Of a DNA stretch of 12,064 nt, positions 1 to 12,064 are shown in pieces. Numbering within the stretch: the first letter of the stretch is position 1; each line of letters begins with the position of its first letter. The notes under the pieces are model-generated. The model made no database searches. It was not told where the DNA came from and saw only the letters and a list, made by a program, of their open reading frames with translations. Location: contig JAUYMQ010000280.1 in assembly GCA_030698575.1 (NCBI GenBank), forward strand, positions 1 to 12,064, read 5' to 3'. The position numbers and the translations under genes are program-made. The stretch is from Deltaproteobacteria bacterium. Lineage in GTDB: Bacteria; JAUYMQ01.

Positions 1-95
1 GCGAAGATAACCACTGGAACGATCAGGGGAACGAGGTGGCCGGGGCTGCCATTGCCGAGTTCCTCCTGGCCCGGCAGCTCATTCGCTCGCCTCAT
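1..95 (-). CDS. Possible start of a further operon gene, truncated by window edge
   Basis: An open frame starts at an ATG at 95-93, overlaps the end of the acyltransferase gene by 17 bases and stays open to the left edge, giving 31 codons. The visible product begins MRRANELPGQ and ends in a hydrophobic stretch, LVPLIVPVVIF, that could be the start of a first membrane helix. The other two minus-strand frames hit stops or lack a start here. The ribosome site is poor: only AAGG directly against the ATG. The tight overlap matches the spacing of the rest of the operon, so a downstream gene starting here is plausible. No family can be recognised from so little, and the true start could lie beyond the edge. 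Confidence 0.35.
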   Translation of the reverse strand, partial: MRRANELPGQEELGNGSPGHLVPLIVPVVIF

Positions 96-762
96 CCTTG
101 AGGGGGCCCAGGGACACCCACTTCCCGAGTTTCTCGTCGTACCGGCGGACTGGTCGGGCGGGGTTTCCCACGACCACCGTGAAGGGCGCGACCTCGCCGC
201 GGACGACCGCATTCGCGCCGACCACGACGTGCCGGCCCAGAGTGGCGCCGGCCAGGATGGCAGCCCCGTCTCCGATCCAGCAGGAATCGCCGATAACCAC
301 GGGGCGCGGGACCGTCAGCGGCTGGTCCCGCGGCGCGGTGGTCGTGTCCTCGAATCCGTGGTCGTGATCGGCGATGAGAATCCGCTCGCCCATGAGCACC
401 CTCACTCCGATCTCGATGCGGCCCTTGGCGGTGATGTGGCAGTAGCGTCCGATCTGGGTCCCGTCGCCGATGCGGAGCACAGGCTGCTGCGGCGGCGCCA
501 CGCTGCCCAGCGCGGCCGCGTACATCGCCGTCGCCTGAAGCAGGCAGCCGGACCGCACGTGCGTGCCCGTGCCGAAGTGGATGTTCTCGGCTCCCTCGAT
601 GTCGCACCAGGGCGAAATGGAGCTTCCCCGCCCGAAGGATCCAAGATCCTTGGCGGAGTAGAGCGTGTACAACGCGGTGAAGATCCGCCGGAGCAGGGCG
701 GGCAGTCCCGACCGATCGATCGCCTGGCCGATCCGGAAAGCGATTCGTCGCCCCCTGCTCAC
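79..762 (-). CDS. Left-handed beta-helix (hexapeptide-repeat) acyltransferase, WbbJ/WcaF/maltose O-acetyltransferase-like
   Basis: The 227-residue product resembles the LbH O-acetyltransferases that move acetyl from acetyl-CoA to sugar hydroxyls in surface polysaccharides. Imperfect hexapeptide repeats run from about residue 55 to 200 (for example IGDGTQIGRYCHI and IGDSCWIGDGAAI). The loop ADHDHGF (131-137) carries the likely catalytic histidine (H133 or H135), and the typical exit VVGNPARPVRR lies near 197-207. A basic N-terminal part of about 45 residues precedes the helix. There is no PglD-like Rossmann domain before the repeats, which argues for an O-acyltransferase rather than a sugar-nucleotide N-acetyltransferase. 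The start is GTG at 762, in a GTGA overlap with the upstream stop, with GGAGG six bases before it. It could O-acetylate the nonulosonate or the polymer; replacing the missing PseH is possible but less likely. The acceptor cannot be read from sequence. Confidence 0.85.
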   Translation of the reverse strand: MSRGRRIAFRIGQAIDRSGLPALLRRIFTALYTLYSAKDLGSFGRGSSISPWCDIEGAENIHFGTGTHVRSGCLLQATAMYAAALGSVAPPQQPVLRIGDGTQIGRYCHITAKGRIEIGVRVLMGERILIADHDHGFEDTTTAPRDQPLTVPRPVVIGDSCWIGDGAAILAGATLGRHVVVGANAVVRGEVAPFTVVVGNPARPVRRYDEKLGKWVSLGPLKDEASE

Positions 763-2228
763 CGGGCACCTCCCGCCGCCAGCGTCTTTATCAGCTCGCG
801 GACGCGTTCGCCGCTCTTTCCGTCGGCGGCGAAGAGATTGTCACTGATGAATCGCGCGCGCAGCTCGCGGCGCTCGGTCCCGATCTCTCCCGGGTCAAGT
901 TCGCGCCGCAAGGCCGCGACCAGCTCCGCCGCGCTTCTGGCGCTCACCGCCGCGCCTTCCCGGGCGTAGGGGAGGGGGTTTTCCTCGCCGAAGGCCTCGA
1001 GGCTCACCACCGGCCGCTCGAGCATCATCGCCTCGAGCCCCACGCTCGAGTGAAACGTGAGAACGGCGTCGGCGGCTGCCAGGAGATCGTACAGATCGAC
1101 CTCCCCGTGCCGGACGACCGCGGCGTTGTCACTCCAGGCGATGAGCGCCCGGTAGGGCGCCGCGTCCTCGGACGGATGGAGCTTCACGATCAGCACCGCC
1201 TGTTCTCCCCAGGACCGCAGCCCGTCCCGCGCGACGCCGACCATCGCCGCGTTGCGGGCGAAGGTGATCGGGTTCGTGGCCAGCACTATCCAGCGGGCCG
1301 CGGGATTTATGCGAAGCTGCGTCGCGATCGTTTCACGCGGAATCGGCTTCCGGTTCACGATCGCGTCGAGTCGCGGCGCGCCGGTCACCTCGATCTTCTC
1401 GGCCGGCACGCCCCGGGCCTGGAGCCAGCGCGCGCTCGCGTCGCCCCAGGCGGCGAATTTCGTCGAAACGACCGGCGTGTAGCCCATGTCTCCCACCATC
1501 ATGCCGTGCTGGAGCGTGAGCGATGGGATGCCGCGCCGGTTCGCCTCCAGTGTTGCACACCTTCCCCAGAAGCTCGTGTCGGAGGCCGTGACGAGCATCG
1601 TCGCGGGATGGGCGTCGAAAAGCCGGTGAAGCCCCAGGCTGGCGGCGGCCGTGCGGATCGCGGCTCGCATGAGCCAGGCGCGGAACGAATGCCTCTGAAA
1701 GACCCGGTGGGCTCCCTGGCGCCTCGCGCGCCGCTGGGCTCGCCAGATGGCCTTCCCTGCGCCGCGGAGGGACGCGCCCTCGGTCCTCGGCAGGAAATCC
1801 CGGATGTCGATCCAGGAGTGCCCCGTCTTCCCCGACAGGGTCTCGGGGTAGGGCGTAGCCGCCCTTGCTTCCGCGGAGTCGAATTGCTCGAGGACGTGCC
1901 TGAGCGTCTCGCGGGTCGAAGGGTTCGCTCCCTCGAAGAGGAAGAGCAGCCTCGGGTCCTCCGGAACGGGGGGCGGTGGCTCGGGGCGGCTCCCGCCCAG
2001 CCGATATCGAAGGTAGACCGCGTGCCCCACGAGCGTCTGCCAGGCCCGTTCCGCCAGGCGCGGCGAGGCGAAAGCCTGTTCCGTCTGAAGGGCCACGTAT
2101 ACGCTTAGCCGGTTGGTCCCGGCCAGATCGTCTCCCTCGATCTCTATCCCCCCGAAGATCGTCTCGAACTGGTCGACCGCGCGGTCGAGCTCCCCGAGCA
2201 CATCGTCGGGACGGCTGCCGTCGGTCAT
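759..2228 (-). CDS. GT-B-like surface carbohydrate transferase; candidate nonulosonate glycosyltransferase
   Basis: This 489-residue protein has no signal peptide or clear membrane segment and is best described as a GT-B-fold capsule-biosynthesis-like protein. The N-terminal 200 residues are poorly conserved and basic near 163-183. The C-terminal half holds the readable motifs: ASDTSFWG (215-222), LTLQHGMMVGD (237-247), VTGAPRLDAI (281-290), VKLHPSED (348-355) and LTFHSSVGLEAMM (390-402). HP at 351-352 followed by HSS at 393-395 recalls the HP and serine motifs of bacterial sialyltransferase and capsule polymerase families (GT38, GT52, GT80). CDP-glycerol glycerophosphotransferase-like proteins share a similar C-terminal arrangement, so assignment by motif alone is not decisive. 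Its ATG overlaps the pseG stop as ATGA. Placement after the CMP-sugar genes makes a CMP-nonulosonate transferase the most natural role, by inference. Confidence 0.65.
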   Translation of the reverse strand: MTDGSRPDDVLGELDRAVDQFETIFGGIEIEGDDLAGTNRLSVYVALQTEQAFASPRLAERAWQTLVGHAVYLRYRLGGSRPEPPPPVPEDPRLLFLFEGANPSTRETLRHVLEQFDSAEARAATPYPETLSGKTGHSWIDIRDFLPRTEGASLRGAGKAIWRAQRRARRQGAHRVFQRHSFRAWLMRAAIRTAAASLGLHRLFDAHPATMLVTASDTSFWGRCATLEANRRGIPSLTLQHGMMVGDMGYTPVVSTKFAAWGDASARWLQARGVPAEKIEVTGAPRLDAIVNRKPIPRETIATQLRINPAARWIVLATNPITFARNAAMVGVARDGLRSWGEQAVLIVKLHPSEDAAPYRALIAWSDNAAVVRHGEVDLYDLLAAADAVLTFHSSVGLEAMMLERPVVSLEAFGEENPLPYAREGAAVSARSAAELVAALRRELDPGEIGTERRELRARFISDNLFAADGKSGERVRELIKTLAAGGAR

Positions 2229-3289
2229 GCGGAGGCTCTCCCATGCGTCCCCGCCATGCGGGCGGCCGCCGCGTCGAGAACCCGTTCCCTTCCCCGGCCG
2301 TCGAACAGCGCCATGCCCTGATCGGCCATTGCGCGGCGGCGTTCGCCGTCCGCGAGGAGCGCGCCGAGTGCGCCGGCGACATCCGCCCCGTCGGGCGCCC
2401 CGAGGCAGAGGGCCACGCCCGCTCTGTCCAGCGCCTCGGCCGCGTCCTTCTGCGTCTCCGAGAGCACGAGCAGCAGCGCCGGCACGCCGAGGCGCGCCAT
2501 CTCGTAGGCGGTCGAGCCGCCCGCCGAGATCGCGAGATCAGCCGTGGCGAATACCTCGGCTGTCTCCGGCAAATCCACTTTGATCCCCACCTTGTGGGAC
2601 GACCCCCGCGCCGCTTCTTCGAGCGACTCGAGATGGCCGTAGGCGCCGCCGACGACGATTGTCACGCGCAGCGCCGGCGTGATTCCCTCGAGGCTCCGAA
2701 GAACCTGCTCGGTTACGTTCGCCGGATCGCCGGCCCCCAGCGAGACAACGACGTGTTCCGCGCGATCGGGTTGCGTCCGCCGCTGGAGGTCGGGACGGAG
2801 GAAGGCGTCGCGAAAGAAGAAGTAATCCGGGCCAAGAAGAAGCTGTGTGTCGCGCGAAACCCTGTAGGCGAGGCGCTCGGCGCCCAGGTTCCCGTTCACG
2901 ACGATATGGGAGGCGTAGGTGATGCGGGGCAGATCGTTCAGGCTCATCACGAGCGGCCCCGCGTCGCGCGCGCCGCTGATCCAGGAGGTGTCGAGGCTGT
3001 TGTGGTCGGTCACCAGCATTGCCTCCGAGAGCGGTTGCCCCTCCTGGCGGCGCTTCATCGCCTCGAGCGTCGCCATGAGATCGGCGGCGCTCCCGGACCC
3101 GTCCGGCAGCAGCGAAACGTCCTCGCCCAGGGCGTCGAGCTTCGCCCTCCCCGAGCCGTCGCCCGCGTGGGTCAGGAAGCGGGGCCGGAGGCCGCGCCGC
3201 CTGGCCTCCTGGGCGAGCGCGTGGCAGCGCGTGAGATGCCCGAATCCGATTTCGGCGCCACCATCCGCCCTGATGTAGAGGTTCGTCAC
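2225..3289 (-). CDS. pseG: UDP-2,4-diacetamido-2,4,6-trideoxy-beta-L-altropyranose hydrolase (PseG type)
   Basis: PseG removes UDP from the pathway intermediate to release the free six-carbon sugar that PseI then uses; it is a cytosolic GT-B-fold enzyme related to MurG. The N terminus has the family signature IRADGGAEIGFGHLTRC (residues 6-22), with the expected catalytic histidine at H18. Other hallmarks are VTDHNSLD (93-100), LLGPDYFFFRDAF (151-163), SLGAGDPAN (183-191), SAGGSTAYEMARLGVP (255-270) and SETQKDAAEAL (277-287). Length is 354 residues with the GTG start at 3289. The longer ATG frame from 3361 would overlap the upstream gene by 47 bases and add a 24-residue basic tail unlike the family, while the GTG has GGGGAG 11 bases upstream. 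Asn97 replaces the tyrosine of the usual DHY motif, possibly altering the substrate pocket. It overlaps the next gene by ATGA. Confidence 0.88.
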   Translation of the reverse strand: MTNLYIRADGGAEIGFGHLTRCHALAQEARRRGLRPRFLTHAGDGSGRAKLDALGEDVSLLPDGSGSAADLMATLEAMKRRQEGQPLSEAMLVTDHNSLDTSWISGARDAGPLVMSLNDLPRITYASHIVVNGNLGAERLAYRVSRDTQLLLGPDYFFFRDAFLRPDLQRRTQPDRAEHVVVSLGAGDPANVTEQVLRSLEGITPALRVTIVVGGAYGHLESLEEAARGSSHKVGIKVDLPETAEVFATADLAISAGGSTAYEMARLGVPALLLVLSETQKDAAEALDRAGVALCLGAPDGADVAGALGALLADGERRRAMADQGMALFDGRGRERVLDAAAARMAGTHGRASA

Positions 3290-3314
3290 GATCAGCGCGT
3301 CTCCCCGCCGGGGT

Positions 3315-4124
3315 TCACCGGCCTTCCGTCCGCTTTCCCCTGGCCGCCAGAACGCGCGCATCCAGCTCCTGGGCGTAGAGATTTCCCCGCTTCTGCTGCA
3401 CCCCGGCGTTCAGCGCCACGATCTCGGGATGAGCTTCCAGGAAGCGCAGCGCCTCGCGCAGGACCACCGGCTTCCCTTCACGGTAGAGCGCTTCGTAGAT
3501 CGCCTTCAGCACCTCGTAGTCGGCGGGTTCGTCGAGGGTGAGGCGGAACTCGGGCCGGTAAAGCGATGCGTCCATGCCGCCGCCCGCGTCGCCGCCCACG
3601 CCAAATGCTTCGATGTGGAACTCCTCGGGGTGCTCCTTGATCGGGACCGTGATCAACTCGCCCTGGTAACGCGTGTGGACCAGCTCGAGGGCCCGGCGGC
3701 TGATGACTTCCACGAGCACGCCGACGGAGAGGACCGCGGGTACGTACGTGAAGTCGGCCCCCGTGGCGCGGTGGTGGGCGATCATCCGGGAAGCGAGGGG
3801 CATGTCGAACAGCGGGCAGTCAGCAGTCACCCGGACGACACTTTCGGCGCCGGATTTTCGGGCGATGGTCACGTGCCGTTCGAGCACGTCCTCGGGGTCG
3901 CCGGCGTAGGCCTCGATGCCGAGCGACCGGGCCAGCGCGACGAGCGGGACGTTGTTCTCCTCACTCGACGTGCCGAGCCAGACGGCGTCGATGCCGTCGA
4001 CGTGGCGCAGCCGCTCCACCATGTGGGCGGTGACCGGCTTCCCGGCGAGATCCATCATGACCTTGCCGGGAAGGCGCTCCGATCCCATGCGGGCTGTGAT
4101 CACGGCGACGAGGGGCCCGGCCAT
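3315..4124 (-). CDS. SpsF-type cytidylyltransferase, probable CMP-nonulosonate synthetase
   Basis: The 269-residue product belongs to the SpsF-type nucleotidyltransferases (COG1861 group), a GT-A-like Rossmann fold. The nucleotide-binding loop is ITARMGSERLPGKVM (residues 9-23), followed by LGTSSEENNVPL (50-61), the acidic metal-site motif VVRVTADCPLFD (about 96-107) and RLTLDEPADYEVL near 197. It should join CMP from CTP to the nine-carbon sugar before transfer. The standard PseF/NeuA enzymes start with a different loop (PARGGSKRIPRKN-like), so this is a functional analogue rather than a textbook PseF. In Bacillus sps operons SpsF accompanies the NeuB-like SpsE, as here. The ATG at 4124 directly abuts the TAG of the preceding gene, with GGAGG 11 bases upstream. 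The exact sugar is not determined by the sequence. Confidence 0.8.
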   Translation of the reverse strand: MAGPLVAVITARMGSERLPGKVMMDLAGKPVTAHMVERLRHVDGIDAVWLGTSSEENNVPLVALARSLGIEAYAGDPEDVLERHVTIARKSGAESVVRVTADCPLFDMPLASRMIAHHRATGADFTYVPAVLSVGVLVEVISRRALELVHTRYQGELITVPIKEHPEEFHIEAFGVGGDAGGGMDASLYRPEFRLTLDEPADYEVLKAIYEALYREGKPVVLREALRFLEAHPEIVALNAGVQQKRGNLYAQELDARVLAARGKRTEGR

Positions 4125-5135
4125 CTAGGCGAGATCCTCCGGTCCAATGGGTTCGTTTCGGTGAACGGCGCGGCGGAGGCGCTTTCCGAGCAGTCGCTCG
4201 GCCTCCAGGGGGCCTATGCCGAGCGGGACACGGCGCTTGAAGTCCACGTGCTCCAGCGTGAGCAGTGTCCCTTCGGCGAGATCCTCGCGCGCCACCAGCG
4301 TCTTGCGCGTGCTTTCGCGCCAGGCGAGTTCTTTCGCCGTGGGCCTGCGGATCGCCTCGCCGAGCGAGACCTCGGCGTTGCGGATGTCCTCGACCATCTT
4401 CTTGAACTCGCCGGGCTCCAGGGCCGACACCCAGTCGTATCGCTTGGCCGCGCGGTCGGTGGTGAAATGTTTCTCGATGGCCATGGACCCGGCGCCCACG
4501 CTCGCCAGCGCCGCTACACTGTCCGTCGTGTGGTCATTGAAACCCACGGGGCGGTCGAAGATCTCCTGGTAGCTCCGGATCACGCGCAGATGCATGTCGG
4601 CGTAGTGGGAGGGGTGATCCTGGAAGCCGTGGAGCAGCACGATCTGATCGTTGCCCGCCGCGGTGATGCGCTCGATCGCGAACTCGATTTCGCCGAGCGT
4701 CGTCATGCCCGTGTGCAGGAGCAACGGGACGCCGGTCCGGGCTGCATGCTCGAGCAGGTAGGGGTTCACCAGGTCGCCGGCGTGGAGCCGGAAAAAAGGG
4801 GTTCCGATGGCGACCTGCAGGTCGACGCTCGGAGGGTCGAGCACGTCAACGCAGAACGAGATGCCGTTGTCCGAGGCGCAGAATCGGAGATCCTTCCACT
4901 CCTGCTTGGTGAAGCGCAGCTTCTGGTAGACCCCGTACCACTCGTAATCCGGGACAGCGAAGGCGTCGGCGTCCATGCACTGGAACTTCACGGCGTCCGC
5001 ACCGGTGGCCGCCGCGGCACGCACCATCTCCATGGCGATGGCGTGATCGCCGGCGTGGTTGTTGGCCCCCTCGGCGATGATGTAAACGGGCTCGCCGGGG
5101 CCGACGCGCTTTCCGTCCAGCACAACGGGCTTCAC
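4125..5135 (-). CDS. Divergent NeuB/SpsE-family protein with altered PEP site
   Basis: The 336-residue protein has a NeuB-type TIM barrel (about 15-265) followed by a SAF/antifreeze-like domain (about 277-336). Classical members condense PEP with a six-carbon sugar to make a nonulosonate. Retained features are IIAEGANNHAG (19-29), DAVKFQ (47-52) and the metal-binding histidines H202 in GFNDHT and H223 in EKHFT. Compared with the PseI next door, several positions are changed: the TPFD threonine is Asp97, the YKI lysine is Arg116, the following serine is Ala119, the STGM serine is His141, and the HC..SYP motif reads HGFQDHP (169-175). The GPDH segment reads KRYDW (231-235), keeping the aspartate. 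Activity or substrate may therefore differ. The GTG start at 5135 has GAGGAG eight bases upstream. It follows pseI after a 42-base gap and abuts the cytidylyltransferase. Confidence 0.85.
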   Translation of the reverse strand: MKPVVLDGKRVGPGEPVYIIAEGANNHAGDHAIAMEMVRAAAATGADAVKFQCMDADAFAVPDYEWYGVYQKLRFTKQEWKDLRFCASDNGISFCVDVLDPPSVDLQVAIGTPFFRLHAGDLVNPYLLEHAARTGVPLLLHTGMTTLGEIEFAIERITAAGNDQIVLLHGFQDHPSHYADMHLRVIRSYQEIFDRPVGFNDHTTDSVAALASVGAGSMAIEKHFTTDRAAKRYDWVSALEPGEFKKMVEDIRNAEVSLGEAIRRPTAKELAWRESTRKTLVAREDLAEGTLLTLEHVDFKRRVPLGIGPLEAERLLGKRLRRAVHRNEPIGPEDLA

Positions 5136-5162
5136 TTGGCGCTCTCCTCTCCTGCGCTGGCC

Positions 5163-5177
5163 GGGCGCGCGGCGCCC
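5163..5177 (-). repeat. GC hairpin between the two synthase genes
   Basis: Directly after the pseI stop codon, in the widest gap inside the operon (42 bases), the minus strand reads GGGCGC-CGC-GCGCCC: a perfect six-base-pair all-GC stem with a three-base loop. No run of T follows, so it is not a convincing intrinsic terminator. It could stabilise or set a processing point for the upstream mRNA segment, or be chance in GC-rich DNA. Confidence 0.45.
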
Positions 5178-6233
5178 TCAGGCGATCTTGTCCCAGGTGA
5201 GCGGATCCTGGGACCGGATGTCCACCGCCGCGCGCCTGCCGACAACCCGATCGAGGAAGCGCGGCTCGAGGCCCGTCCCGGGCCGGAGGATGGCCAGCAT
5301 GTCCTCGCGGATGAGGGCGCCGGCGGGAATGTCCGTGGCGGCGAAGATCGAGCGCCGACCCATCACGAAGCTCCCCTCCTCGGAGGGGAGCCGGTGCTTC
5401 ACGGGACTCCCGAGCGCTTCCTCGCACTCGCGGACGCCCTGCACCAGCGCCTTGAGCTCGTCCGGCTCGATGGAGAAGGGGTGATCGGGCCCCGGCATGT
5501 CCCGGCCCAGCGTGAAGTGTTTTTCGATCATGTTTCCGCCGAGGGCGGCGGTCACCACGGCGGCGGTGATTCCGTTCGAGTGATCGCTGTAGCCCACCGG
5601 GACGCCGAAGGCGCGCTTCATCGCCGGGATGGCGCGCAGGTTCAGCTCCGTGAACGCGGCCGGGTAGCTTGCGGCGCAGTGAAACAGGGCGACCTCCTTG
5701 CAACCCCCGGCTTCGGCTGCCTCGAGCGCCGGCTCGATGTCAGCCAGGTTCGCCATCCCCGTCGAGATGAGAAGGGGTTTTCCGGTGGCCGCCGCATGAC
5801 GGATGAGCGGAAGGTGCCACAACTCGTAGGAGGCGATCTTGTAGGCCGCCAGATCGAGCTTCTCGAGATCGTCCACCGCCTCCTCGTCGAAGGGCGTGCA
5901 GAGGAAGATGAGCCCTTTCTCCTCGCTGTAGGCCTTGAGATCCCCCAGCCATTCCGCGGGGAGCTCCATCTGCTTGTAGACCTCGTGCATGCTCCCTGAC
6001 TCGGGGAACATCTTCTCGATATAGGGGTGCTTTTCGCGCATGCGCGCGACGATCTTGTCCGCGGTGAAAGCCTGGAACTTGACCGCGTCGGCGCTTGCCG
6101 CGGCGGCGGCGTCGATGAGGCCCAGGGCCGTCTTCATGTCGCGGTTGTGGTTCGACGACGCCTCGGCGATGACGAAGAAGGGATGGCCGTCGCCAATCGT
6201 CCTGGGGCCCGCCTTTACTTCGGGACGGAGCAA
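5178..6233 (-). CDS. pseI: Pseudaminic acid synthase (PseI type)
   Basis: PseI condenses PEP with 2,4-diacetamido-2,4,6-trideoxy-L-altrose to form pseudaminic acid. The barrel shows FFVIAEASSNHN (residues 19-30), DAVKFQAF (49-56), FLCTPFD (110-116), AYKIAS (130-135), LLISTGMA (154-161), FHCAASYPA (184-192), GYSDHSNG (214-221) and EKHFTLGRDMPGPDHPFS (237-254). H218 and H239 are the expected metal ligands. A SAF domain closes the protein (about 292-351, with LRPGTGLEPRFLD). The start chosen is TTG at 6233, giving 351 residues, close to known PseI lengths. AGGAGG lies nine bases upstream, and the TTG comes four bases after the carbamoyltransferase stop. An ATG at 6350 would add 39 Ser/Arg-rich residues lying inside the carbamoyltransferase gene. 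All usual active-site positions look intact, so this is the likelier working synthase of the pair. Confidence 0.9.
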   Translation of the reverse strand: MLRPEVKAGPRTIGDGHPFFVIAEASSNHNRDMKTALGLIDAAAAASADAVKFQAFTADKIVARMREKHPYIEKMFPESGSMHEVYKQMELPAEWLGDLKAYSEEKGLIFLCTPFDEEAVDDLEKLDLAAYKIASYELWHLPLIRHAAATGKPLLISTGMANLADIEPALEAAEAGGCKEVALFHCAASYPAAFTELNLRAIPAMKRAFGVPVGYSDHSNGITAAVVTAALGGNMIEKHFTLGRDMPGPDHPFSIEPDELKALVQGVRECEEALGSPVKHRLPSEEGSFVMGRRSIFAATDIPAGALIREDMLAILRPGTGLEPRFLDRVVGRRAAVDIRSQDPLTWDKIA

Positions 6234-6237
6234 GGGC

Positions 6238-7935
6238 CTAGCCCTCCTCTCCGACGAGCCAGTTGCCGATCGCCAGGCAGTCGACGTTTTCCTTCTGGAA
6301 GGACTGCACGGCGTCCTCGGGGGAACAGACGATCGGCTCCTCGTGGTCATTGAAGGAGGTGTTGATGATGGCGGAACGGCCCGTCTTCTGATGGAAGGCC
6401 TTGATGAGATCGTGATACTCGGGGTTCTGCTCGCGAGGGACCACCTGCGGCCGCGCCGTGCCGTCGACGTGAACGGTGGCAGGGGCGCTTTCCTTGAACT
6501 CAGGCGTGCAGTCGTAGCAGATCGTCATGAAGTGGCTGGCGATGTGATCCGGCCGCCAACCCACGAAGCTCCGCGCCGCCAGCGCGGGGATCGTGGCCGG
6601 CGCGAAGGGCATGAACTCGGTGCGGTGGAGCCGCTTGTTGAGCCAGTCGTTGACGGTTTTATCGGCCGGGTGGACGAGGATGCTGCGCGCGCCCCGCGCG
6701 CGCGGACCCCACTCCATCCGCCCCTGGAACCAGCCGACGACCTTTCCCCGGGCGAGGAGATCCGCCGTTTCGGCCACCTTGTCCCTGAAGGGACGGTAGG
6801 TGAGGTTGTAGGCGTCGAGAACCTTCTTGATCTCCTCGTCGCTGAAAGACGGACCGAGATAGACGTCCGCGATGGGGCGCTGGATCCGGTTGCCCGTCTC
6901 GGACAGAAAGTTGAGCGTGGCGCCGACCGAGAGCCCGCCGTCGCCCATGTTCGGATAGACGAACACGTTGTCGACGCCCTCGAGGGCGAGAATTCGCTGG
7001 TTGAGTTTCACGTTTCCGAAGAGCCCGCCGGCGAGACAGATGTTCTCGACGGGCGCGCCCGCGTCCGCCTGCTCCTTCAGGAATCGCCGGATGTAGGCGA
7101 GCATCACGTCCTCGAGGTGCTGCTGGCAGGCGGCGGCGATGTCCTCCTTCGAGAACCCGGAAAGCGCCTCCTTGAGCGCGGGAGGCGGGTCGGTGAAGAA
7201 GGGCTTGTACATCCGGCCGATCTTCGCGTAGATGTTCCCGTCCGTGAAATCGATCATCTCCCGCATCACATGGATGGCTTTCGACGGGTCGCCGTAGGCC
7301 GCGAGCCCGGTGACCTTCCCCTCGTGACGGACGGGGCGCATGCCGAGGATGAAGGTGATCGTCGAGTAGTAGAAGCCGAGGCTGTCGAAACTCGACCGCC
7401 AGTCCAGCTCGGTGATCTTCTCCCCCTCGCCGAGGTGCACCGTCGCGCTCCGGAAATCCCCCCGCGCGTCGGCGGTGAAGCAGAGCGCCCGGTCGAAGGG
7501 GCTCGTTAGAAACGCCGTGGCCGCGTGAGAGAGGTGGTGATCGTAGACGCGGAGTTTCGAGGTCCACCCCTGTTCGGCGGCCACGCGCGCCATCTCGTCC
7601 TTGCGTACCTGATCGCGCTCCAACTCCACCCGCACCCTGGTTTCGACCAGTTCCGCGCAGTCCGGTTGTTCCTGCACGGCGCGGATCATGCGCTTGCTCA
7701 ACGGGCCGAGGAGTTTGTGCTCGTCGAACTCGCGCCCCCAGCCGTAGGCCACCGCGTCGACCTCCGAGGCCTTCAGGCCGCCCATCGAAAGGACGTACTC
7801 GATGGCCCGCCAGGGGAAGGCGTCGTCCTGCTTTCTGCGGCTGAATCGCTCCTCGTTGGCGGCCGCCACGGTTTTTCCGTCGATGGTGAGCGAGGCGCCG
7901 CTTTCGAAGGCGTTCGAGAGGCCGAGCACGATCAT
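6238..7935 (-). CDS. O-/N-carbamoyltransferase, NodU/CmcH/TobZ family
   Basis: These enzymes make carbamoyl-adenylate from carbamoyl phosphate and ATP and pass the carbamoyl group to a sugar or antibiotic hydroxyl. The 565-residue product starts MIVLGLSNAF, as family members do. It keeps VYDHHLSHAATAF (130-142), with probable metal ligands H133 and H137, then HEGKVTGLAAYGD (204-216), AGGLFGNVKLN (302-312) and NMGDGGLSVGA (329-339, candidate metal aspartate D332). EWGPRARGARSIL (408-420) and INTSFNDHEEPIV (524-536) follow in the C-terminal domain. The usual form of the former is FGPRALGNRSIL, so Arg414 and Ala416 are departures. ATG at 7935 is preferred: AAGGA is six bases upstream and it overlaps the methyltransferase stop as ATGA. 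An ATG at 7941 would add two residues but has no spacing for the ribosome site. The likely acceptor is a pathway sugar or finished nonulosonate, by context only. Confidence 0.9.
   Translation of the reverse strand: MIVLGLSNAFESGASLTIDGKTVAAANEERFSRRKQDDAFPWRAIEYVLSMGGLKASEVDAVAYGWGREFDEHKLLGPLSKRMIRAVQEQPDCAELVETRVRVELERDQVRKDEMARVAAEQGWTSKLRVYDHHLSHAATAFLTSPFDRALCFTADARGDFRSATVHLGEGEKITELDWRSSFDSLGFYYSTITFILGMRPVRHEGKVTGLAAYGDPSKAIHVMREMIDFTDGNIYAKIGRMYKPFFTDPPPALKEALSGFSKEDIAAACQQHLEDVMLAYIRRFLKEQADAGAPVENICLAGGLFGNVKLNQRILALEGVDNVFVYPNMGDGGLSVGATLNFLSETGNRIQRPIADVYLGPSFSDEEIKKVLDAYNLTYRPFRDKVAETADLLARGKVVGWFQGRMEWGPRARGARSILVHPADKTVNDWLNKRLHRTEFMPFAPATIPALAARSFVGWRPDHIASHFMTICYDCTPEFKESAPATVHVDGTARPQVVPREQNPEYHDLIKAFHQKTGRSAIINTSFNDHEEPIVCSPEDAVQSFQKENVDCLAIGNWLVGEEG
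6243..6248 (-). promoter_or_regulatory. Ribosome binding site deciding the TTG start of pseI
   Basis: The minus strand carries a full AGGAGG nine bases before TTG at 6233, overlapping the last codons of the carbamoyltransferase gene. Its strength and spacing favour the TTG over the upstream in-frame ATG at 6350. Confidence 0.7.
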
Positions 7936-8621
7936 GGACATTCCTTCGTCACGAGTGCGATGAGACGTTCGCGCCGGTTCTCGTCGTCCAGGCGGACATC
8001 CCCGGGCAAGAGACCCATCCGCAGTAGCCGCTCTTCGAGGACCGGCAGGTCGCCGAAGGTGACGGCCGAGCGGACGGTAAAGCCGGCGGCGGCCAGGGTG
8101 GCCGTGAGATCGTCGAGATCATAGTAGCGCAACACTGTCGTATCGCGCCGGTAGGGAATGAGGCCTTTCTCGTTGAAGACACGATAGACCTCGATGTATC
8201 GCCTGTTGGGCGTGGTCACGACCATGGCGCCTCCCGCGGCCAGAACGCGGGAGGCTTCGGCAAGAACCTGGTCCGGTTCGGCAACGTGGCCGATCGCGTG
8301 GGTGATCACCAGCCCTTCGAAAACGCCGTCGCGGAACGCCAGGTGGTGAGCGTCCAGATTCATGAAGCCCCCGCCCACCTCGCGCAGCGCAATCTGGATT
8401 CCCTTCGGTGAGTAATCGGCGCCGAAGGCGGCGTAGCCGGCTTCGCGCAGCGCGGCGACGTTCAGCCCCGGCCCGCAGGCCAGATCCAGCACGCGGCCCC
8501 GCACGCCCGCCTCCTGCAGCAGCCGGATGACCTCGCGGATCTCCGACCGTCCCTTCTCCGAGACGTTGAAGGGCATGATTCGGCCGGTGTAGTAGTCCTC
8601 GTCCGGAATCTCGAGCCTCAT
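7932..8621 (-). CDS. Class I SAM-dependent methyltransferase
   Basis: The 229-residue protein is a Rossmann-fold methyltransferase of the UbiE/UbiG-like (Methyltransf_11/25) type. Motif I is VLDLACGPGLN (44-54), the acidic end of strand beta-2 is GADYSPKGI, and the later motifs read LVITHAIGHVAEPDQVLAEASRVL (not all shown in sequence order of contacts) and GGAMVVTTPNRR. No membrane segment or extra domain is seen. Its ATG at 8621 overlaps the pseC stop as ATGA, and its own TGA overlaps the carbamoyltransferase start as ATGA, so translation of the three is probably coupled. Methylation of a hydroxyl or amino group on the pathway sugar is the reasonable inference from position; the family acts on many small molecules and the sequence does not name the acceptor. 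Confidence 0.82.
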   Translation of the reverse strand: MRLEIPDEDYYTGRIMPFNVSEKGRSEIREVIRLLQEAGVRGRVLDLACGPGLNVAALREAGYAAFGADYSPKGIQIALREVGGGFMNLDAHHLAFRDGVFEGLVITHAIGHVAEPDQVLAEASRVLAAGGAMVVTTPNRRYIEVYRVFNEKGLIPYRRDTTVLRYYDLDDLTATLAAAGFTVRSAVTFGDLPVLEERLLRMGLLPGDVRLDDENRRERLIALVTKECP

Positions 8622-9799
8622 GCCCGCGCCTCTTCCACGACCTCGCCGACGATGGCGATGACGTCCTCGACGTCCGTGTCGTTCATTCGCGGGAAGAGCG
8701 GGAGCGAGATCTCGGCCGCGTAGTAGGCCTCCGCACGGGGGAACTCCCCCGGCGCATGCCCGAAGTGCTTCCGGTAATAGGGGTGGAGCGGGATGGGAAT
8801 GTAGTGAACCTGCACGCCGAGCCCGCGCTCCCGGAGCGCCTTGAAGATCGCCCCGCGCGAGGAACTGAGCCGATCCAATCGGAGCCTCAGCGGGAAGATG
8901 TGCCAGGCCGGCTCGGCGCCGGGCCTCGAGGCCGGGACAGTGAGCGCGTCGCTCTTGTTGAAGGCCTCCCGGTAGCGATCAACGATGGCGCGGCGCCGCG
9001 CCACGAACGCATCCAGCTTGCGAAGCTGGCTGAGCCCGAGCGCGCACTGAAGATCGGTGATCCGGTAGTTGTATCCCAGCTCGATCATTTCGTAGTACCA
9101 GGGCCCCCGCTCGATGTCGCCGTGGAGGAATTCTCCCGCCTCGCGCGTGATGCCGTGGGTGCGGAAGAGCCGGAGACGGTGCGCCAGCGCTTCGTCGTCC
9201 GTGGTGACGGCGCCGCCTTCACCGGTGGTGATGGTTTTCACGGGGTGGAACGAGAAGGTCGTAAGATCGGCCAGCGCGCCCACCGGCCGCCCCCCAAGGC
9301 GTGCCCCGAGCGAATGGGCGGCGTCTTCGATGATGAGGATGCCGCGCTCGCGGGCGATCTCGCGCAGCGCCTCGAGATCAGCGGGGTGGCCGGCGTAATC
9401 GACGGGGAGCAACGCCCGGGTGCGCGGCGAAAGTGCCCGGCGCGCGGCTTCGGGATCCAGGTTTCCGGTGTCGGCGCTGACGTCGGCGAAGACCGGCCGC
9501 CCTCCCTGATAGAGGACGGCGTTCGCGCCGGCGACGAAGGAGAGGGGACTTGTCACGACCTCGGCGCCGGGACCGACGCCGGCGGCGTAAACCGCTCCGT
9601 GAAGGGCCGCGGTTCCGCTCGAGAAGGCCACCGCGAAGCGCGCGCCGACCGCGCGACAAAGATTGTTTTCGAAAAGATCGATAGCCGGGCCCTGGGTTAT
9701 CCAGTCCCCGCGGAGGATCTCGAGAACGCTCTGGACGTCCTCTTCGTCGAGCCACTGCCGCCCGTAGGGGAGGGGAGAGCTGCTGCGATCCCTGGGCAT
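8618..9799 (-). CDS. pseC: UDP-4-amino-4,6-dideoxy-N-acetyl-beta-L-altrosamine transaminase (PseC type)
   Basis: PseC is a cytosolic PLP enzyme of the DegT/DnrJ/EryC1 family that aminates C4 of the PseB product using glutamate. The 393-residue sequence begins its family block with PYGRQWLDEEDV (11-22) and GDWITQGP (31-38). SSGTAALH (60-67) contacts the cofactor phosphate. EDAAHSLGA (158-166) supplies D159 for the pyridine nitrogen. SFHPVKTITTGEGG (183-196) holds the Schiff-base lysine K188. GYNYRITDLQCALG follows near 248 and VHYIPIPLHPYYRK near 332, both typical of PseC. The ATG at 9799 comes one base after the pseB stop, with GAAGGG just upstream. Related aminotransferases for other 4-amino sugars exist; the adjoining PseB-type dehydratase favours the altrosamine pathway. 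Confidence 0.92.
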   Translation of the reverse strand: MPRDRSSSPLPYGRQWLDEEDVQSVLEILRGDWITQGPAIDLFENNLCRAVGARFAVAFSSGTAALHGAVYAAGVGPGAEVVTSPLSFVAGANAVLYQGGRPVFADVSADTGNLDPEAARRALSPRTRALLPVDYAGHPADLEALREIARERGILIIEDAAHSLGARLGGRPVGALADLTTFSFHPVKTITTGEGGAVTTDDEALAHRLRLFRTHGITREAGEFLHGDIERGPWYYEMIELGYNYRITDLQCALGLSQLRKLDAFVARRRAIVDRYREAFNKSDALTVPASRPGAEPAWHIFPLRLRLDRLSSSRGAIFKALRERGLGVQVHYIPIPLHPYYRKHFGHAPGEFPRAEAYYAAEISLPLFPRMNDTDVEDVIAIVGEVVEEARA

Positions 9800-9800
9800 G

Positions 9801-10778
9801 TCACCCTTCGCCTATCATGCGGCGGAGCTCCTCGACGGTGAGCCACTGTGTGTTGTTGTCGCTCGAATAGCGGAATCCGTCGGGCAGGGTCTTGCCTCCC
9901 TCCCACTTCTCTCGTTTCCACCAGGGGTGCTCGGGCTCGATCACGAAGAATTTGTCGAAGCGGAGCGCGTGGCGGGCCTCGTCCTCGGTGACCATGACCT
10001 CATGCAGTTTTTCGCCGGGGCGAATCCCGATCTCCTTGATCTCGCAGTCGGGCGCCATGGCGCGGGCCAGGTCGGTGACCTTCATGCTGGGGATCACGGG
10101 GATGAAGATCTCGCCGCCGTGAAGGAGATCGACGGCATCGAGCACGAGCTGCACGGCCTCGTCGAGGGTGATCCAGAAGCGCGTCATGCGGGGATCGGTG
10201 ATGGTCAGCACGCCCGAGGGGCGCTGCTCGCGGAAGAGCGGAATGACAGAGCCCCGGCTCCCGACGACGTTGCCGTACCGCACGCAACTCAGCCGGGTGT
10301 TTCGCCCGCCGGTGTAGGCGTTCCCCTGGATGACTATCTTCTCGGCGCAGAGCTTGGTCGCCCCGTAGAGGTTCACGGGGTTCACGGCCTTGTCCGTGGA
10401 GAGAGCAACGACCCGCTCCACCCCGCAGTCGATGGCGGCGTCGATGAGGTTCTGGGCCCCGAGAATGTTCGTCTTGACGGCCTCGAAGGGGTTGTACTCG
10501 CAGGCGGGGATCTGCTTCAGGGCCGCCGCGTGCACCACCACATCGACCCCCTGCATGGCCCGGTAGACCCGCTCGCGGTCGCGGACGTCGCCGAGCAGGA
10601 AGCGGAGGCGGGGGTCCTGGATCTCCGAGCGCATCTCGCTCTGCTTCAACTCGTCCCGCGACAAGACGCGAAGGGCCCTGAAATCGTGATCCCGGACCAG
10701 CCGGCAGGTGAAGGCACGGCCGAAGGAACCCGTGCCGCCCGTGAGGAGAATGACCTTGTCCTTGAAACGCGTCTGCAC
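9801..10778 (-). CDS. pseB: UDP-N-acetylglucosamine 4,6-dehydratase (C5-inverting, PseB/FlaA1 type)
   Basis: First pathway enzyme: an NADP-dependent short-chain dehydrogenase that converts UDP-GlcNAc to UDP-2-acetamido-2,6-dideoxy-beta-L-arabino-hexos-4-ulose. With the GTG start the product is 325 residues, near the length of H. pylori FlaA1. The nucleotide loop is LLTGGTGSFG (11-20). SRDELKQSEM (40-49) and HAAALKQIPACE (83-94) are PseB hallmarks, and LSTDKAVNPVNLYGATK (126-142) holds D129, K130, Y138 and K142 of the active site. GTG at 10778 has AGGGGG five bases upstream. An in-frame ATG at 10841 lies within the predicted -35 element and would add 21 unrelated residues, so it is rejected. 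It heads the operon and is followed one base later by pseC. Confidence 0.93.
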   Translation of the reverse strand: MQTRFKDKVILLTGGTGSFGRAFTCRLVRDHDFRALRVLSRDELKQSEMRSEIQDPRLRFLLGDVRDRERVYRAMQGVDVVVHAAALKQIPACEYNPFEAVKTNILGAQNLIDAAIDCGVERVVALSTDKAVNPVNLYGATKLCAEKIVIQGNAYTGGRNTRLSCVRYGNVVGSRGSVIPLFREQRPSGVLTITDPRMTRFWITLDEAVQLVLDAVDLLHGGEIFIPVIPSMKVTDLARAMAPDCEIKEIGIRPGEKLHEVMVTEDEARHALRFDKFFVIEPEHPWWKREKWEGGKTLPDGFRYSSDNNTQWLTVEELRRMIGEG

Positions 10779-10783
10779 CGTGA

Positions 10784-10789
10784 CCCCCT
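10784..10789 (-). promoter_or_regulatory. Ribosome binding site for the GTG start of pseB
   Basis: AGGGGG on the minus strand sits five bases before GTG at 10778. It is the only purine-rich site near a start codon ahead of the conserved TGGTGSFG loop, and it decides the start together with the promoter position. Confidence 0.6.
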
Positions 10790-10812
10790 GCGAGGCGTGA
10801 ACAGAATTGGCG

Positions 10813-10841
10813 ATTTTATCTGTATTTTTGCTACGTTGCAA
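10813..10841 (-). promoter_or_regulatory. Sigma70-like promoter for the nonulosonate operon
   Basis: In an A/T-rich island within very GC-rich DNA, the minus strand has TTGCAA (10841-10836) and TAAAAT (10818-10813) separated by exactly 17 bases. These match the -35 and -10 consensus at four and five of six positions. Transcription would begin near 10806, leaving a leader of about 28 bases before the pseB GTG. No second promoter of similar quality was noticed between the genes downstream. Confidence 0.6.
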
Positions 10842-10875
10842 TCAATCGGCCGCTCCGGCGGGCCTTCCCTCGGCT

Positions 10876-10903
10876 CGGCCAGGGCTTGGCCGGCCCCTGG
10901 CCG
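10876..10903. repeat. Inverted repeat between the divergent genes
   Basis: CGGCCAGGG (10876-10884) and CCCTGGCCG (10895-10903) form nine-base arms around a ten-base spacer. It lies about 35 bases upstream of the pseB -35 element. No T-run follows on either strand, so a terminator is unlikely. It could be an operator for one or both genes, but a chance palindrome in GC-rich DNA cannot be excluded. Confidence 0.35.
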
Positions 10904-11076
10904 GCTCCAGGTCCGGAAACGCGGCCGGCATGATAGATTTCGGCACCCTGTGGGGCTCCCTTGAGGGGGGTATACAACCGCGGCGGCATCCTGTACACCG
11001 TGGCTCGTTCAAGCTTGGCTCTCGCCGGCCGGGCCTGGCGCTCGACGGAAGGACCCCGGTTCCCGAAAGGCGGTGA

Positions 11077-12064
11077 ATGAAGCGCAAGCGCAGCGGGTTC
11101 CGGGTGCTCATCGCCTTCGGCACCCGGCCGGAAGCCATCAAGCTGGCGCCCGTGGTCGCCGCCCTGAAGGCGGCCTCGCCGCGAATTGAAACCCGCGTAG
11201 TCGTCACGGCGCAGCACCGCGAGATGCTCGACCAGGTTCTCTCCCTCCACGGCATTGTCCCCGATCATGATCTCGACGTCATGCGACCCCGCCAGACACT
11301 CACGCAGATCACCCACCGCGCGCTCGAGCGTGTCGGCCGACTTCTCGATGACGATCCGCCGGATCTCGTCCTCGTTCAGGGCGACACGACCACCAGTTTC
11401 ACCGTTGCGCTCGCGGCCTTCTACCGGCGCGTCGCGGTGGGTCACGTCGAAGCGGGCCTCCGCACCTACGACAAGTTCCAGCCCTTTCCGGAGGAGATGA
11501 ACCGCGTCCTCACCTCGCACCTCGCCGACTGGCACTACGCGCCCACACGCCGAGCGCGGGAGGCGCTGCTCCGCGAGGGAATCCCCGCCTCGCGCGTTCT
11601 CGTCACGGGGAACACCGTCATTGACGCCGTGCTCGCGGTCGCCGCGAAGCCGCTCTCCCGATCGCCGGTTCCAGGCTGGCGTCCCGCGCCGGACCGCCGT
11701 CTGATCCTGGTCACTGCGCACCGACGCGAGAACCTGGGCGAGCCGCTGCGCGAGATCTGCGGCGCCATTCTCGATCTGGTGGATCGTTACGAGGATGTCG
11801 AGGTCATCTACCCGCTGCACCTGAACCCGGCGGTGCGGGAGGTGGTGCGCCCGCTTCTCGGGCGAAAGGAGCGCGTGCGCCTCGTCCCTCCACTCGACTA
11901 CCACCCGTTCGTGTCGCTCATGGCGCACTCGACGCTCATTCTCACCGACTCCGGCGGAATTCAGGAAGAGGCCCCCTCGCTCGGAAAGCCCGTGCTGGTT
12001 CTCCGCCACGTGACGGAGCGGCCCGAGGCGGTGGAGGCGGGCACGGTGAAGGTGGTCGGGCCCG
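11077..12064 (+). CDS. wecB: UDP-N-acetylglucosamine 2-epimerase, non-hydrolysing (WecB/MnaA type), 3' end outside window
   Basis: WecB interconverts UDP-GlcNAc and UDP-ManNAc in the cytosol, feeding ManNAc-containing surface polymers. The frame starts at ATG 11077 (AAAGGCGG just upstream) and is still open at the edge after 329 codons; family members run about 370-380, so roughly 45 residues are missing. Hallmarks are IAFGTRPEAIKLAP (12-25), VVVTAQHREMLDQ, LVQGDTTTSF (99-108, catalytic-type D103), VGHVEAGLRT (121-130, E125), FPEEMNR (137-143, E139), VTAHRREN (212-219, H215) and LTDSGGIQEEAPSLGKPVL (289-307). The GTRPEAIK start distinguishes it from the hydrolysing NeuC. It diverges from the nonulosonate operon. 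UDP-ManNAc is not an intermediate of the PseB-C-G-I route, so it probably serves another sugar of the same glycan. Confidence 0.93.
   Translation, partial: MKRKRSGFRVLIAFGTRPEAIKLAPVVAALKAASPRIETRVVVTAQHREMLDQVLSLHGIVPDHDLDVMRPRQTLTQITHRALERVGRLLDDDPPDLVLVQGDTTTSFTVALAAFYRRVAVGHVEAGLRTYDKFQPFPEEMNRVLTSHLADWHYAPTRRAREALLREGIPASRVLVTGNTVIDAVLAVAAKPLSRSPVPGWRPAPDRRLILVTAHRRENLGEPLREICGAILDLVDRYEDVEVIYPLHLNPAVREVVRPLLGRKERVRLVPPLDYHPFVSLMAHSTLILTDSGGIQEEAPSLGKPVLVLRHVTERPEAVEAGTVKVVGP

Follow-up and report, generated by a model that had tools for sequence, protein, structure and literature searches.

The type of a nonulosonic acid cluster (sialic, legionaminic or pseudaminic) is assigned largely from its NeuB homologue. 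In this barrel family the active site lies at the C-terminal ends of the strands, and NeuB is a domain-swapped dimer in which the SAF domain reaches into the active site of the partner subunit. Residues are numbered here on Neisseria meningitidis NeuB (Nme; 1XUU sequence), in whose structure Ser154 presumably touches the PEP phosphate. PEP is surrounded by positions 110, 129, 131, 132, 182 and 184 (PMC7371886), and a published list of ligand contacts includes Thr110, Lys129, Asn184, Tyr186 and Ser213 (PMC6795526). In N. meningitidis KDO8P synthase (KDO8PS), the phosphate on the PEP side is bound by Lys133 and Arg163 (PMC6650799), and a constant offset of five would make Lys133 the counterpart of Lys138 in E. 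coli KdsA.

The window, a stretch of 12,064 nucleotides, is a single contig from a genome of 4.13 Mb. That genome yielded no NeuB genes beyond the two described here, and a search of it for 16S rRNA gave nothing. The window represents a pseudaminic-acid type cluster whose genes lie on the minus strand: PseG (2225-3361), PseC aminotransferase (8618-9799) and PseB dehydratase (9801-10841) all score above their NCBIfam cut-offs. The canonical PseI/NeuB paralogue (5178-6233), which has a normal pocket and probably starts at a TTG at 6233, falls narrowly under the TIGR03586 cut-off (336.8 vs. 340.25 bits). The longest PseI frame (5178-6350) overlaps the carbamoyltransferase gene by more than 100 bases, and the TTG at 6233, just past the stop of that gene, is the likelier start. 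The cluster also contains a NodU/CmcH-type carbamoyltransferase (6238-7941), a SAM-dependent methyltransferase (7932-8621), a surface-polysaccharide glycosyltransferase-like protein (759-2228) and a WbbJ-like hexapeptide acetyltransferase (79-762). The window (1-12064) yielded neither a PseH-type acetyltransferase nor a NeuA/PseF-type CTP transferase.

The second NeuB gene, referred to here as the NeuB variant, occupies positions 4125-5135 and encodes 336 aa on the minus strand. Its reading frame is intact from a GTG start at 5135 to 4125, with AGGAGAGGAG, taken as the ribosome-binding site, just 5' of the start, and its GC content by codon position (0.69/0.42/0.87) is similar to that of the neighboring genes. 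The sequence-only reading had described a barrel and a SAF domain, and both are recovered by Pfam above the gathering scores (NeuB, 180.9 vs. 22.1 bits; SAF, 33.7 vs. 21 bits). The variant stays well below the equivalog cut-offs for PseI (TIGR03586, 190.5 vs. 340.25 bits) and NeuB (TIGR03569, 229.5 vs. 399.65 bits), and far under that for DAH7P synthase (DAH7PS; TIGR01361, 27.7 vs. 267.75 bits). Because it shares only 31% identity with the neighboring PseI, a recent copy of that gene appears unlikely.

All of the metal, acid and lysine residues are retained in the NeuB variant. Glu22, Lys50, Gln52, Asp201, His202, Glu221, His223, Asp234 and Arg301 stand for Nme Glu25, Lys53, Gln55, Asp214, His215, Glu234, His236, Asp247 and the cross-subunit Arg314; the alignment thus bears out the earlier assignment of Lys50, His202, His223 and Asp234. 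By codon count, as for the other residue coordinates given here, the metal ligands His202 and His223 are encoded at 4530-4532 and 4467-4469. The standard pocket residues Thr/Ser110, Lys129, Ser132, Ser154, Tyr186 and Ser213 are missing, and their places are taken by Asp97 (4845-4847), Arg116 (4788-4790), Ala119, His141 (4713-4715), His174 and Asn200. Among the 121 other NeuB-family rows compared, which were found by similarity to the variant and so form no unbiased census, Lys129, Ser132 and Tyr186 each occur in every row, Ser213 in 120, Ser154 in 118 and Thr or Ser at position 110 in 117. Ser132 is not universally invariant, being replaced by Gly in one group of phage NeuBs from a later, phage-rich sample. 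Two NeuB genes lying about 2-4 kb apart, one copy with Gly132, were observed on viral contigs L181, L182, L186, L189 and L208, and a second NeuB-like frame on viral contig L173 (8400-9398) has strongly degenerate active-site columns.

Most of these substitutions had been proposed by eye in the sequence-only reading, and the alignment places all six of its pairs (Asp97, Arg116, Ala119, His141 and His174 at positions 110, 129, 132, 154 and 186, and Trp235 at position 248) in the columns claimed. Trp235 carries little weight, because position 248 varies across the family (75 His, 13 Ala, 12 Gln, 11 Ser, 5 Ile and 2 Trp). That list had left out the change of Ser213 to Asn, those of Asn184 to Gln, Cys182 to Gly and Gly131 to His, and a shortening of the loop around Nme 60-75; Phe112 is also changed, to Leu. 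As a result of several of these changes, the family motif H-C-x-x-x-Y (Nme 181-186) reads HGFQDH in the variant (residues 169-174; 4614-4631). The replacements cluster on positions that line PEP, in agreement with the earlier suggestion that the gene is more than a simple duplicate.

An AlphaFold2 model of the NeuB variant (mean pLDDT 94.4, pTM 0.86) places the altered residues at, or close to, the C-terminal ends of the barrel strands. Its top structural matches by Foldseek and VIA-align are NeuB, the Leptospira synthase 6NCS, SpsE and PseI (Z 35-40), followed by DAH7PS and KDO8PS (Z 25-29). At the sequence level, the variant gives weak DAH7PS family matches, of which the PseI of the window has none. 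When 125 NeuB rows were scored with a DAH7PS profile, it also came first, although the margin is small (50.4 bits, with the next row at 46.1) and the profile was built from sequences initially retrieved through their similarity to the variant. In the alignment, Asp97 shares a column with E. coli KdsA Asp95 and the Glu of the DAH7PS TEV motif, and His141 shares one with KdsA Lys138. Judged from this sequence alignment, the pocket may partly resemble those of KDO8PS and DAH7PS. As His141 falls in the column of the lysine, it may act as a stand-in for the KDO8PS residue that holds the PEP phosphate, in which case PEP binding may have been rebuilt and not lost.

Three relatives share part of this altered pocket with the NeuB variant, namely Asp or Glu at position 110, Gly at 182 and Gln at 184 (the D/E110-GxQ signature); two are from Pseudomonadota and one is from a phage contig. 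L167/L170 (L170:8532-9554), from a Pseudomonadota sample, has the motif HGFQ with Glu at 110, Thr at 132, Ala at 154 and Ala at 213. When it was used as a query, L219/L224 (L224:6539-8299) was found, a fusion protein of 586 aa that joins its NeuB part to a CTP transferase; this one has GVQ and Asp at 110, and its PEP residues are otherwise mostly kept. The phage member (L190:1507-2262) has GEQ with Glu at 110 and is flanked by a radical SAM gene on one side and an SpsF-type gene on the other. These three genes (radical SAM, variant NeuB and SpsF-type CTP transferase) make up a phage cassette at L190:632-2909, and a canonical NeuB is also present on that contig at 5998-6948. Like the window, the clusters of L170 and L224 each contain a separate canonical NeuB as well; in these two, other genes separate it from the variant gene. 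A canonical NeuB near the NeuB-SpsF fusion (L224:9420-11813, G481) is fused behind an amine-oxidoreductase/GLF-like domain in a protein of 797 aa.

A group with conserved replacements had been proposed as a check for a separate lineage, and it was found in part. Asp or Glu at 110 and the GxQ motif recur in other genomes and on the phage contig, whereas Arg116, Ala119, His141, His174 and Asn200 of the NeuB variant are not conserved in these relatives, and most of its replacements outside the signature are private. Closer relatives did not emerge: a scan of genome contigs gave 17 matches, none of them above about 35% identity and each with a canonical pocket; class and phylum searches for a close homologue returned only the genome of origin; and the plasmid and phage matches examined had canonical pockets only. 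Taking the two bacterial relatives as queries against plasmids and phages gave no closer match, and viral scans for TGM-72-HGFQ and for HGFQxFPT/HGFQxYPT returned no NeuB. No description of a D/E110-GxQ subgroup was found in the literature searched.

The phylogeny is compatible with such a subgroup. In a careful tree of 46 rows with the pocket columns masked, L167 and L219 group together (bootstrap 99, SH-aLRT 92) and the NeuB variant joins them (bootstrap 97, SH-aLRT 81). The AU test rejects a placement of the variant inside that of PseI and its subclade (p-AU 0.028). Pairing it with PseI costs 30 log units in the best such tree and is not rejected (p-AU 0.106), and in a larger, quick tree (85 rows) the same constraint was no worse and even scored better; a clade of the variant with its relatives is thus likely but not proven. 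One further candidate member was set aside. L099/L146:14955-15971 (G209) joined the variant in the unmasked tree, with a long-branch warning, and falls outside the group of the variant, L167 and L219 once the pocket is masked. It is an odd-pocket NeuB in its own right, with Lys53 changed to Thr, Thr110 to Asn and Arg314 to Leu, and it sits after a PIG-L deacetylase gene in a cluster that also has a canonical NeuB.

An SpsF-type CTP transferase lies near all four signature members. In the window it is a protein of 269 aa (3315-4124) whose start codon follows directly on the stop of the NeuB variant. Adjacency to SpsF was considered as a specific marker of the subgroup and was weakened by clusters with a canonical NeuB. 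The neighbor alone is unspecific, since many of the sampled loci have an SpsF-type gene at a distance of up to about 8 kb from a canonical NeuB and since spsF of B. subtilis belongs to a pathway with the canonical SpsE (PMC7439481). The fusion in L224 is a stronger link. The single SpsF-type enzyme of the window may serve both NeuB proteins.

The reading that we favor, at a confidence that stands evenly balanced, is that the NeuB variant is an active synthase that still uses PEP, bound in a rebuilt pocket, and that it belongs to a small and sparsely sampled subgroup marked by D/E110-GxQ. It would be a metal-dependent enzyme with the NeuB fold that makes a 2-keto-3-deoxy sugar acid by condensing PEP with an aldose, with PEP held by another set of residues (Asp97, Arg116, His141, Gln172, His174 and Asn200). 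Its acceptor would differ from that of PseI, and the adjacent SpsF-type CTP transferase would probably activate the product, which would then be built into a surface glycan. Several points weigh against this. The pocket is only partly a family trait and its private replacements could reflect drift; an acidic residue close to the PEP phosphate is not obviously favorable; and the SpsF-type neighbor may serve PseI instead, given how often such genes lie near canonical NeuB.

The replaced residues are those that line PEP, while the metal and general acid/base residues stay, and this pattern could also be read as a change of donor, or of reaction, with an aldolase or lyase step on the same barrel. 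Asp at 110 and the loss of Ser132, Ser154 and Ser213 would remove contacts found across the family, presumably including the one made by Ser154. Such a change nevertheless seems unlikely, as Lys53 is retained, Arg116 preserves the charge of Lys129, and the potentially cationic His141 sits where KDO8PS has its PEP-phosphate lysine; L219, moreover, keeps Lys129, Ser132, Ser154 and Ser213, which fits PEP at least in that relative. The earlier suggestion of a non-catalytic or regulatory partner, forming a heterodimer with PseI, has the tandem arrangement in one gene run on its side, together with the retained SAF domain and Arg301 (Nme Arg314). Degenerate partners may also exist elsewhere: in a Flavobacteriaceae MAG, L154:5462-6478 has lost His236 (Pro), Gln55 (Glu) and Arg314 (Val) and stands in tandem with a canonical NeuB (L154:4421-5425), making it, from its residues, a probable candidate for a non-catalytic partner. 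For the variant itself this role is disfavored and we rate it as improbable. Its metal and catalytic residues are all present, the variant and canonical genes are not adjacent in L170 and L224, and the variant of L224 is fused to a CTP transferase. Because the catalytic set is kept and a relative carries this fusion, an active enzyme is preferred over a silent partner.

The probability is similarly low that the variant is an ordinary Pse/Leg/Neu-type synthase whose pocket has drifted and whose product is of the same kind. The NeuB fold, the closest structures (NeuB, 6NCS and PseI) and the survival of the PseI pairing in the AU test would fit, but the variant departs at positions that do not vary across 121 homologues drawn from many phyla, and an apparently functional PseI already adjoins the gene. 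A long branch and several private changes could also mark a decaying duplicate on its way to a pseudogene. This we find very hard to credit, considering the full-length frame, the ribosome-binding site, the GC content by codon position, the complete set of catalytic residues and the intact SAF domain.

The most far-reaching reading makes the D/E110-GxQ subgroup a separate enzyme class with a new donor-acceptor pair, an undescribed 2-keto-3-deoxy sugar acid as product and a dedicated, sometimes fused, SpsF-type CTP transferase to activate it, operating beside ordinary nonulosonic pathways in bacteria and phages. We hold this reading to be tentative and rather unlikely. Present models would misannotate a subgroup whose donor pocket is rebuilt and which lies next to an ordinary synthase, and such a subgroup may point to acidic sugars that have so far gone undescribed. 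The ordinary PseI next to the variant offers a natural control for finding the pocket residues that determine the use of donor and acceptor.

Compared with its signature relatives, the NeuB variant shares 26-31% identity with those of L170 and L224, both of which retain Lys129; L219/L224 also retains Ser132, Ser154 and Ser213, which the variant has lost. With PseI, NeuB, LegI and SpsE (PF03102 plus SAF) it has in common the barrel and SAF architecture, the metal histidines and the equivalents of Glu25, Lys53, Gln55, Glu234, Asp247 and Arg314, and it differs from them in lacking Thr110, Lys129, Ser132, Ser154, Tyr186 and Ser213 and in its shorter 60-75 loop. The DAH7P and KDO8P synthases are like it in the barrel, the acidic residue at 110 and the metal His, Glu and Asp positions, and the column of KdsA Lys138 holds His141 in the variant. 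Unlike these enzymes, the variant has the NeuB-type KFQ region, a two-His metal site and a SAF domain.
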